Assembly (NCBI RefSeq): GCF_900143055.1
Contig: NZ_FRCW01000004.1
Location: 248,001 to 312,000, forward strand
Source of the DNA: Fibrobacter sp. UWR3
GTDB taxonomy: Bacteria; Fibrobacterota; Fibrobacteria; Fibrobacterales; Fibrobacteraceae
Length of the DNA stretch: 64,000 nt
Direction: 5' to 3'
In this document: in pieces, positions 22,798 through 25,847 of the stretch
Layout of the letters: each line of letters opens with the position of its first letter
How positions within the stretch are numbered: the stretch's first letter is position 1
Notes under the pieces: generated by a model
What the model was told of the DNA's origin: nothing
Seen by the model: the letters and a program-made list of their open reading frames with translations, nothing else
The model's database searches: none
Made by a program: the position numbers and the translations under genes

Positions 22798-23847
22798 ATG
22801 AATCAGAATTTTGTCAAGTCCGCCGTTGCGGCAACCCTCCTGATTGCGGGAACTATCGGGTTTAGCGCATGCTCTTCTTCTGACGAACAGAAGGGCGAAG
22901 CATCCGCCAAGAAGGTCGAAAAGCAGACGCTCACCAACGTGTCTTACGACCCGACCCGCGAACTCTACGCGAACTACAACGAAGTCTTCAAGAAGCACTG
23001 GAAAGAAAAGACCGGTGGCGAAGTGGAAATCACGCAGTCTCACGGCGGTTCCGGCAAGCAGGCCCTGGAAGTGGCCAACGGTCTTGAAGCTGACGTGGTG
23101 ACGCTCGCCCTTGAATTCGACGTGAACGCCGTGCGCGACGCGGGCCTCATCGAAGACGGCTGGGTCAAGGAATTCCCGCTGAACAGCTCCCCGTACACAT
23201 CCACCATTGTGTTCCTGGTCCGCAAGGGCAACCCGAAGGGACTCAAGGATTGGGGCGATCTCGTGAAGCCGGGCATTGGCATCATCACGCCGAATCCGAA
23301 AACTTCCGGTGGCGCGCGCTGGAACTACCTTGCCGCCTGGGCATGGGCCGAGAACCAGTATAACGGCGACCAGGAAAAGGCGAAGGATTTCGTGAAGAAA
23401 CTTTACGCCAACGTTCTCGTGCTTGCCTCGGGTGCTCGCGGCTCCACCACGACCTTTATCGAAAACGGTCAGGGCGACGTGTTGCTCTCCTGGGAAAACG
23501 AAGCGTTCCTCGCTCTCAAGGACTACCCGAACGACTACGAAATCGTAATCCCGAGCATCAGCATCCTGGCTGAGCCCTCTGTTGCCATCGTGGACAAGGT
23601 GGTTGACAAGCGCGGTACCCGCGAACTTGCCACCGAATACCTGAGCTACCTCTATAGCGACGAGGGCCAGCACATTGCCGCGAAGAATCATTACCGCCCC
23701 TCCAACAAGGAGATTCTCGCCCAGTACAAGGAATTCGACCCGAACGTGAACCTGTTCAGCATCGAACGTTTCGGCGGCTGGGACAAGGCGCAAAAGACGC
23801 ACTTCTCCAACGGCGGCATCTTCGACCAGATTTACGAAAAGAAGTAA
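22798..23847 (+). CDS. sbp: Sulfate-binding lipoprotein of the ABC transporter
   Basis: 349 aa. Signal [18 protein letters not shown] ends in a lipobox GFSAC, so the protein is a lipid-anchored periplasmic binding protein. Family signatures: [54 protein letters not shown] and YRPSN, all typical of Sbp/CysP sulfate/thiosulfate binding. The start is ATG 22798, with AGCGAGGT upstream; an ATG at 22723 is between -35 and -10 and is rejected. It is separated from cysTWA by two other genes but shares the same promoter type. Confidence 0.95.
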
Positions 23848-23854
23848 GCCAAGT

Positions 23855-23888
23855 TGTCATTCTGGAGCCTCAAAGAGGCGATAGAATC
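23855..23888. repeat. Dispersed repeat (CTGGAGC family)
   Basis: TGTCATTCTGGAGC...GGCGATAGAATC downstream of sbp; the same family is read in frame inside the LysE gene at 62553-62594. Confidence 0.7.
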
Positions 23889-23908
23889 TAGAGCCAAATT
23901 GTCATAGC

Positions 23909-23943
23909 AAAAATCCTCGCTCTCCGGAGCGGGGATTTTTTTT
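23909..23943 (+). terminator. Terminator downstream of sbp
   Basis: AAATCCTCGC-TCTCCGG-AGCGGGGATTT followed by a long T-run. Confidence 0.88.
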
Positions 23944-23956
23944 GTATATTTACCCA

Positions 23957-24183
23957 TATAGCAGTCAATCCCGCTGACAGCGATAAATTCCGGGCGGGTA
24001 GTTCAACTCTCTGCTTGACGCCGTTCTCCCTTTGCTGGCGCGACATGCCTGCGATTCGAGGACAGGAACCCTATGGGGAGGCCGGCCCCTGGCGATCAAC
24101 GTAGAGCACCCCCACGTTTTGTGGGATTCCCAATCTGTCATCAACAGGTTTGTGAACCGGTGTTCTGCGTTTCTACACTCATG
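23957..24183 (+). ncRNA. Structured leader or small RNA, unassigned
   Basis: About 225 bp without a credible gene. A TATATT element at 23945-23950 right after the terminator could start a transcript near 23957. Several strong hairpins follow: GGGG-AGGCCGG-CCCC (24074-24088), CCCAC-GTTTT-GTGGG (24111-24125), GGTT-TGTG-AACC (24148-24159), and TGACAG (23974) can pair with CTGTCA (24135). GC content is high and the region is not repetitive. It may be an independent RNA (6S-like size) or the 5' leader of the nuclease gene; I could not match it to a known family. Confidence 0.35.
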
Positions 24184-24218
24184 CTCCTGTTTACAAACTT
24201 CAATAAATTAAACAGGAG
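24184..24218 (+). promoter_or_regulatory. Hairpin sequestering the Shine-Dalgarno of the Rpn-type gene
   Basis: CTCCTGTTTA (24184-24193) is the perfect reverse complement of TAAACAGGAG (24209-24218), with a 15-nt loop. The 3' arm contains the AGGAG Shine-Dalgarno of the gene starting at 24224, so the folded mRNA hides the ribosome site. Confidence 0.75.
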
Positions 24219-24223
24219 ATTCT

Positions 24224-25258
24224 ATGAATCGCACTCAACATTTGGCTATGCTCGAGGCCATGAAAATCGACAAGAAGAACCTGCTCAAGTACCAGCAGAT
24301 TTACAAGTACGCCTACCTCCTGAGTGACGGTGTTTTCAAGATTGTTTTCGCCGAGGAAAAAGACCACACGCTGCTCATTTCGCTGGTGAACGCGATGCTC
24401 GACCTGCACGACGGTGACGCCATCAAGTCCATCACGCTCGAAATGCAGGAGTATCCCGGCATTTTCAGCAAGAAGGACTGCATTCTCGACATCATCGGCA
24501 CGACCAACGCAGGCGAAAAGATCCTGGTTGAGGTCCAGCAGAAAAAGGACAAGTTCTTCAGGGATCGCGTGCAGTATTACCTTTCCCGCGTCATTGAGAA
24601 CCAGGTCCATGTGAACGAAAAATACGAACTGCCGCGCATCTATTTTCTGGGCCTCCTTGATTTCGAAATGTTCCCGGAAGAACCCGCCGAATACATCCAT
24701 CACGTGGACGAAATGTGCCATGGCAAGAAGTTCTTCCCGAAAATTCAGAAGGTTTTCGTTGAAATCGACAAGTTTTTCGAGCTTGAAAACGCTGGGACTA
24801 CCCATGACGACAATTCCGAGGCGGCACAGTGGCTGCGTGCCCTCAAGGCGATTATCAAGGAGGAACCCGCTCCCGAGAAGATTTTGCAGAATGAAACTTT
24901 TCAGCACTTGATTAATTCTGTGAAATTGATTAACTTTGCAGAAGAACTTTTTAACGCCGAGGTAAAGAACATGACGGACTTGCGTGCTGAACACGAAGAA
25001 GGACTCGCCGAAGGGCGTGAGCTCGGTCAAGCCGAAGGTCGTGAACAGGGCCTTTCCGAAGGCCGTGAACAGGGTCTTTCCGAAGGTCGTGAGCAGGGGC
25101 TTTCCGAAGGGCGTGAGCTCGGTCAAGCCGAAGGCGAACTCAAGAGGGCTCGCGAAATAGCGGCAAAGATGCTCGCCAAGAACAAGCCTGTCGAAGAAAT
25201 CGTGGAATTTACGGGGCTCACGGAATCCGAGATTCACGCGATTGAATCAACCCCCTAG
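24224..25258 (+). CDS. Rpn-family PD-(D/E)xK nuclease/putative transposase
   Basis: 344 aa. N-terminal FKIVFAEEKDHTLLISLVNA and DIIGTTNAGEKILVEVQQKK show the PD-(D/E)xK core (D ... E-V-Q-Q-K) of the Rpn/PDDEXK_2 'transposase-like' family, followed by the typical FLGLLDFEMFP and HHVDEM segments. The C-terminus has about five copies of an 8-residue repeat of the form EGREQGLS/EGRELGQA (24-nt DNA repeats, 25009-25137) and ends in a helical EIVEFTGLTESEIHAIE tail, as usual. Rpn proteins are DNases linked to recombination. Translation appears to be controlled by the hairpin at 24184-24218. Confidence 0.88.
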   Translation: MNRTQHLAMLEAMKIDKKNLLKYQQIYKYAYLLSDGVFKIVFAEEKDHTLLISLVNAMLDLHDGDAIKSITLEMQEYPGIFSKKDCILDIIGTTNAGEKILVEVQQKKDKFFRDRVQYYLSRVIENQVHVNEKYELPRIYFLGLLDFEMFPEEPAEYIHHVDEMCHGKKFFPKIQKVFVEIDKFFELENAGTTHDDNSEAAQWLRALKAIIKEEPAPEKILQNETFQHLINSVKLINFAEELFNAEVKNMTDLRAEHEEGLAEGRELGQAEGREQGLSEGREQGLSEGREQGLSEGRELGQAEGELKRAREIAAKMLAKNKPVEEIVEFTGLTESEIHAIESTP

Positions 25259-25280
25259 GAGTTGACAACTTCCAAACGAT

Positions 25281-25847
25281 TTAGGCGTTCCCTGCCAGGC
25301 CGATTTCGGCGGCGTGTTCACGCATGCCCTCGATGCAGATGGCGGCAACATCCTTCACGTCCATGCCGAGCAGGGTGCAGCCTTTCAAAATGTAGTCGCG
25401 ATTGCATTTGGCGGCGAATTTCTTGTCCTTGAACTTCTTCATAAAACTTTTCACTTCGAGGTCCAGAATGCCGTTGGGGCGCATTCTCGCGCAGGCCTGG
25501 ATGATTCCGGTGAGTTCGTCCACGGTGAACAGACTCTTTTCCATGTTGGTCTTGGGTTCCACCTGGTTCACGATTTCAAAACCGTGCGCCAAAATGGCAC
25601 GCACGTCTTCTTCGGAGACGCCCTGCGCGAGCAGTTCCTTTTCGGTGTGCTGCAGGTGCTCTTCGGGGAATTCTTGGTAGTCGTAATCGTGCAGGTAGCC
25701 TACAGCCTGCCAATGTTCAACGTCTTCGCCGAAGTGTTTGGCCATGGCGCCCATGGCGTAGCATACGTTGAGGGAATGGATGACCAGCGATTCTTCGGTT
25801 ACGTGGCCCTTGTTGATTTCTTTTGCGCGTTCAAGTGTCAAGCTCAT
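25281..25847 (-). CDS. HD-domain phosphohydrolase-like protein
   Basis: 188 aa. The HD metal-binding signature is visible as HSLNVCYAMGAMAKHFG, then GYLHDYDYQEFPEEH (HD pair) and a distal D (LFTVDELTGII). This resembles small HDIG/HD hydrolases often annotated as hydrolases of nucleotides. Substrate unknown. ATG 25847 has AGGCATT-type upstream bases; the gene is convergent with the Rpn gene and divergent from cysT, so it separates sbp from cysTWA. Confidence 0.78.
   Translation of the reverse strand: MSLTLERAKEINKGHVTEESLVIHSLNVCYAMGAMAKHFGEDVEHWQAVGYLHDYDYQEFPEEHLQHTEKELLAQGVSEEDVRAILAHGFEIVNQVEPKTNMEKSLFTVDELTGIIQACARMRPNGILDLEVKSFMKKFKDKKFAAKCNRDYILKGCTLLGMDVKDVAAICIEGMREHAAEIGLAGNA

Follow-up and report, generated by a model that had tools for sequence, protein, structure and literature searches.

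Translational riboswitches combine a structured 5′ leader and a conserved core with mutually exclusive helices and a sequestor of the Shine–Dalgarno (SD) sequence, and the mRNA of the IS10 transposase folds back into a hairpin that forms only in transcripts arriving from outside. Rpn proteins, for their part, have been reported as phage-defence toxins restrained by an antitoxin made inside the same gene, RpnS being known in E. coli (PMC10327210), and RCd22 of Clostridioides difficile, a structured RNA beside the abortive-infection toxin gene AbiF, has been reported to hold AbiF down (PMC12373285). The text of PMC10327210 on Rpn systems makes no mention of a leader, hairpin or untranslated region. 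Here we describe a leader that precedes an rpn gene in Fibrobacter sp. UWR3, within a stretch of 64,000 nucleotides of contig NZ_FRCW01000004.1 that we refer to as the window; coordinates are positions in the window, and all features lie on its + strand. We consider it fairly probable that this leader represents a new, lineage-specific class of cis-regulatory RNA of the Fibrobacteraceae, with a riboswitch-like layout, that represses the translation of mobile toxin, nuclease and toxin–antitoxin genes. Sequence comparison supports the elements on which this reading draws, namely the fold of the core, two helices of the 3′ domain termed P7 and P8, a hairpin over the SD sequence, and the association with these types of gene.

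The original prediction held that a perfect hairpin hides the ribosome-binding site of an Rpn-type nuclease gene. This hairpin occupies 24184–24218, where CTCCTGTTTA (24184–24193) is fully complementary to TAAACAGGAG (24209–24218) over 10 bp with a loop of 15 nt, and the SD sequence AGGAG (24214–24218) falls within the 3′ arm, 5 nt from the ATG at 24224, exactly as had been described. Folded alone, the 35-mer reaches −10.6 kcal/mol (z −5.2; none of 200 shuffles equals it), and the stem, which covers the SD sequence, is predicted to form by default, in agreement with a hidden ribosome site. Perfect 10-bp inverted repeats with loops of 3–20 number ten in the 64-kb window, against 0–3 in five first-order Markov simulations; the repeat is thus above chance, yet as a repeat it is neither unique nor decisive in the window. 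What lifts the hairpin above chance is its conservation at the same place before different genes. In 24 related leaders a hairpin lies there, directly 5′ of the start codon of several different genes that encode Rpn (PDDEXK_2, Transposase_31) and DUF1016 proteins, and it occurs as CUCCUGUUU/AAACAGGAG or as UUCCGUUUG/CAAACGGA(G), two versions separated by three compensatory pairs. Its retention before other Rpn genes, a check that the original prediction had proposed, is therefore borne out, and it is kept before unrelated genes as well.

The SD hairpin forms the 3′ end of a leader of roughly 270 bases, at about 23958–24223. A 331-base query, spanning the upstream region and the gene start, matched at 38 places, which lie in 20 of the 61 related genomes searched, and in these places the leader recurs on the same strand in front of different genes. 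A covariance model built on the leader core and its four helices, P1–P4, matches about 105 copies in the genus, where 44 of 80 genomes carry the leader. Two other genera of the family also have copies, and the remaining genera of a 151-genome phylum sample have none. Copies are scattered, and their presence or absence differs between close genomes. Searches against Rfam 15 at the gathering score matched nothing across the leader, either in the window or in ten relatives, the plasmid and phage collections gave no leader match, and literature searches, of which the coverage is incomplete, gave no description of the leader among structured RNAs in Fibrobacter or before Rpn or defence genes. Permissive-mode Rfam matches on the leader were at chance level and mostly over the preceding terminator; pattern matches outside Fibrobacter (a Deltaproteobacteria metagenome-assembled genome, L146; Ferrimonas, L152; a viral contig, L164) were likewise set aside as chance, the covariance model giving no match there. 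About 20 copies (L007, L008, L012, L027, L076, L081–L090 and others) carry an insertion of about 75 bases in the P1 loop, composed of the palindrome GTTTCAAGCAAGCTTGAAAC and a GACGCC–GGCGTC stem, which looks like a repetitive extragenic palindromic (REP)-type repeat with one favoured place. One locus (L027; genome G020 contig 13, 33328–34926) holds two near-identical leader copies in tandem, 1449 bases apart, the first before a Transposase_31 Rpn gene.

In the core, P1 (23970–23974/23994–23998, CCCGC/GCGGG) shows two-sided changes in five of five pairs and is 84% paired across 94 distinct copies; P2, a long-range helix of 14 bp with two bulges (24009–24022/24091–24106), has 95% of cells paired, with 8 of 14 pairs two-sided and four invariant; P3 (24023–24028/24058–24063), whose inner part is variable, has five of six pairs two-sided and is 87% paired; and P4, GGGG (24075–24078) with CCCC (24086–24089), is two-sided in all four pairs and 98% paired. 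In the first alignment of 23 copies, which was made from sequence only and in which the four helices were spotted by eye and then tested, 11 pairs show two-sided changes and pairing reaches 92% of cells, against 36–51% when the partners are slid by 1–3 columns. Across 101 copies (94 distinct), 22 of 29 pairs show two-sided changes and 92% of cells are paired (28–46% in slid controls); this larger alignment was fitted to the covariance model, which biases its counts towards the structure, and the sequence-only alignment agrees with it. RNAalifold, unaided, recovers most of P2, part of P3, and P4, without P1 as drawn here. All copies keep one G–U pair of P2 unchanged, a sign of RNA of this strand rather than of DNA, and G–U exchanges are numerous as well. 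The leader thereby offers the conserved, structured core with covariation that is looked for in a riboswitch.

Downstream of the core lies a 3′ domain with pairings that reach the gene start. In P7, the 3′ end of the core, GUAGAGCACC (24101–24110), pairs with GGUGUUCUGC (24159–24168), or GGUGYUCURC in consensus, and tracks changes such as GUAGGG/CCCUAC in L111; of 60 long leaders, 47 have a P7 duplex clearly better than that with the downstream sequence shuffled (mean energy over all 60, −13.2 against −7.8 kcal/mol), and the helix reuses bases of the outer 6 bp of P2. Inside the P7 domain, folding yields the P5 hairpin (CCCAC/GUGGG, 24111–24125), re-formed with other bases in relatives as judged by eye, and the P6 hairpin (24135–24147) is CUGU/ACAG in one group and CAGU/ACUG in another. 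P8 joins GUUUGUGAAC (24148–24157), within the consensus GGUUUGYRARC, to GUUUACAAAC (24189–24198) just before the gene, and interlocks with P7 as a pseudoknot. Across 45 leaders, cognate P8 partners average −13.8 kcal/mol, swapped partners −11.9 and shuffled ones −7.8, and none of 5000 permutations is as good. The 3′ strand of P8 overlaps the 5′ arm of the SD hairpin by 5 of 10 bases in the window copy (24189–24193) and by nearly all in the second hairpin version. P2 and P7, and P8 and the SD hairpin, thus share bases, and mutually exclusive pairings reaching the ribosome-binding site are predicted. With two helices of the 3′ domain in competition, one against the core and the other against the SD hairpin, the leader looks, on these predicted pairings, built to switch. 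A P6/SD-arm anti-sequestor (AACAGG with CCUGUU) had also been considered; it fits the window copy, the second hairpin version does not preserve it, and P8 was adopted in its place.

Genes could be assigned by their N-terminus for 85 of the 101 copies, the other 16 being left out, and what they share appears from sequence to be a common theme of toxins, nucleases and their partners. Rpn genes account for 50 copies of the PDDEXK_2 type, six with Transposase_31 and one Rpn-like; the others are five DUF1016/YhcG nucleases, five Gp49 toxins (with a helix-turn-helix (HTH) gene next, where checked), four Ntox50 or similar genes, three ORF6N, two metallophosphoesterases, two PIN-like genes, one AlbA_2, and six cases of a small unnamed open reading frame (ORF) followed by a GNAT-like gene. 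Domain names come from Pfam matches of representatives, except that 'GNAT-like' and 'PIN-like' were assigned by eye to proteins without a Pfam match. In PADLOC the YhcG protein is entered under PDC-S02, a candidate defence system, and a SocA-like gene follows one copy outside the 85. At the second leader copy of the window's own genome (L119, G000 contig 1), the DUF1016-type gene is open for 394 amino acids; in a sister copy, L051, it stops after 135.

A −10-like box, TATATT (23945–23950), lies 234 nt upstream of the stem of the SD hairpin, and the same box is found at a near-constant distance before P1 in most of the 101 copies. Its sequence is TATATT, replaced by TGTGTATCTT in a divergent subtype, and about 17 bases further up there is often a TTGC or TTGACA-like element; copies without it at the expected place are mostly those in which the P1-loop insertion shifts it away. 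The window copy has a good −10 box, and its −35 position, a poor match, is inside the terminator hairpin of the preceding solute-binding-protein gene. From the leader box to the gene, the + strand of the window shows no further promoter-like site. The leader is thus probably transcribed on its own, from a predicted start about 225 nt upstream of the hairpin. In the Gp49/HTH group (L015, L020, L028, L080), TTGACATTATGTCAAAAATGACATATATT follows the core and an ATG comes only 2 bases later, which may indicate leaderless initiation and a second promoter bearing a palindromic operator.

From these elements we infer transcription, a default OFF state and a direction of switching. Transcription would begin just before P1, and the core P1–P4 would fold first and act as a sensor or as the binding site of a shared factor, with the 3′ domain as expression platform. 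P7 and outer P2, and P8 and the SD hairpin (at least in part), would exclude each other, so that the ribosome site would follow the state of the core. In the default state, as in the computed fold, P7 and the SD hairpin would be formed and translation of the Rpn toxin would be low; a change in the core could then shift the pairings, and the P7/P8 pseudoknot would remove the 5′ arm of the hairpin and free the SD sequence. More tentatively, and with less confidence than an even chance would warrant, we suggest that the leader forms a new class of riboswitch, or is read by a single factor of the cell that all copies share, and joins unrelated genes for toxins, nucleases and toxin–antitoxin systems of the Fibrobacteraceae in one regulon, such that newly acquired toxin genes arrive pre-wired to one host signal, possibly phage attack or stress.

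Several observations weigh against a cis-acting switch of this kind. The minimum-energy fold contains P7 and the SD hairpin together, and the P2/P7 and P8/SD competitions are predicted pairings; the strands of P8 are near-palindromic, which by itself favours pairing; and, in calculations with no pseudoknot terms, forcing P8 costs 12 kcal/mol in the 3′ domain and the conserved core is 6–9 kcal/mol less stable than the default fold, a deficit that would fit a core needing a partner for stability or one forming first during transcription. In the window's own genome, 6 of 10 PDDEXK_2 matches have no leader by the covariance model, and the start codons of the assigned genes were taken from an N-terminal motif. 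Many members of the leader family lack the SD hairpin in this form, which, with the sharing of its 5′ arm by the conserved long-range P8, also tells against the hairpin as the stand-alone device of the original prediction. In favour of a switch, in some of these leaders the 3′ tail of the core matches the SD sequence directly, with pairings of GUUCC/AGGAA (L120, L008), CUCC/GGAG (L074) and CUCU/AGAG (L105) where the tail differs from CACC, and in the small-ORF group, likewise without the hairpin, the core CCCCUGAC matches GUCAGGG beside the SD sequence, by eye.

The core could instead act independently, as a small RNA or RNA antitoxin binding either the toxin or the toxin mRNA, and the hairpin would then be an added brake. 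AbiF and RCd22 provide a published precedent (PMC12373285), the core stands upstream of toxin-type genes with its own promoter-like box, and in the Gp49 group the second promoter-like sequence between core and gene could let the core act alone. We nevertheless regard this as unlikely, given that one core precedes many unrelated proteins, whereas RNA antitoxins are usually toxin-specific, that the window shows no terminator downstream of the core, and that the conserved P7, P8 and SD hairpin link the core to the gene start in long leaders. G–U pairs bear on a further reading, in which the leader is a DNA element, such as a recombination site or the end of a gene-carrying cassette, merely resembling RNA: the invariant pair and the many exchanges would pair only in RNA of this strand. 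Pairings directed at the ribosome-binding site, the constant strand ahead of the gene, the box at near-fixed distance, and a single copy per unit, with no flanking pairs as far as seen, also make this quite improbable, despite cargo like that of integrons and mobile cassettes, the insertion of leader and gene as one unit against an empty site, and the patchy occurrence of copies between close genomes. A reading as integron attC sites was set aside, since inspection by eye showed no properly formed R′/R″ boxes and the promoter-like box keeps a near-fixed distance. Least credible, and in our view very improbable, is the reading first proposed for this site, in which a simple SD hairpin, like that of IS10, keeps read-through transcripts from being translated. 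The hairpin is real and stable; however, it is the end of a conserved leader, and since the box lies upstream at a near-fixed distance, the predicted transcript of the leader itself always includes it.

Beyond the leader, the window gene (24224–25258; 344 amino acids) encodes a PDDEXK_2 nuclease that matches PF12784 (E=3e-36; 125.6 bits, cut-off 27.4) and TIGR01784 (E=3e-21; 76.6 bits, cut-off 52.1) above the curated cut-offs, which places it among the Rpn family nucleases, as had been anticipated. The silent DNA-cutting protein of the original proposal is better described as a toxin of the Rpn toxin–antitoxin type (PMC10327210). An in-frame ATG at 24971, following GAGGTAAAGAAC and preceded by an SD-like GAGG, is a plausible internal start for an RpnS-like antitoxin (24971–25258), and its Met is kept in most Rpn relatives, though not in all. 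Just 3′ of it lie 24-base repeats (24995–25138) that encode EGREQGLS-type units, the number of which varies among relatives.

Leader and gene appear, from comparison with an empty site, to move together as an inserted unit of the leader and the rpn gene (23941–25285), the edges of which are approximate because the flanks have diverged. In the window the two lie between the terminator of the solute-binding-protein gene and an HD-type gene; in genome G029 the solute-binding-protein gene and terminator are followed directly by the HD-type gene, with no leader or rpn (L129 against L126). The position after the solute-binding-protein gene (23840–25290) holds different genes in different species and is a small site of gene turnover.

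Structured leaders common to many genes usually report one signal, and the genes here encode toxins and nucleases of kinds associated with phage defence, for most of which no trigger is known. Should the leader be a switch, its binder would reveal the common trigger of a toxin regulon, and mobile toxin genes could travel with their own RNA control unit.

On paper, the leader resembles a translational riboswitch, with a structured, conserved core, its own promoter-like box, mutually exclusive helices (predicted) and an SD sequestor; it differs in having a regulon of toxins and nucleases rather than metabolism, a distribution within one bacterial family, and no Rfam match. As in IS10, a hairpin encloses the ribosome-binding site of a gene that carries a transposase-like annotation, although here the leader's own predicted transcript would contain the hairpin. 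It shares with RCd22 the position of an RNA adjoining a toxin gene, and whereas RCd22 binds its one toxin (PMC12373285), the leader core is found before genes of many protein families, as an integral part of their own leaders. With the Rpn toxin–antitoxin systems (PMC10327210) the locus has in common a gene of the same family and, within it, a candidate internal RpnS start.
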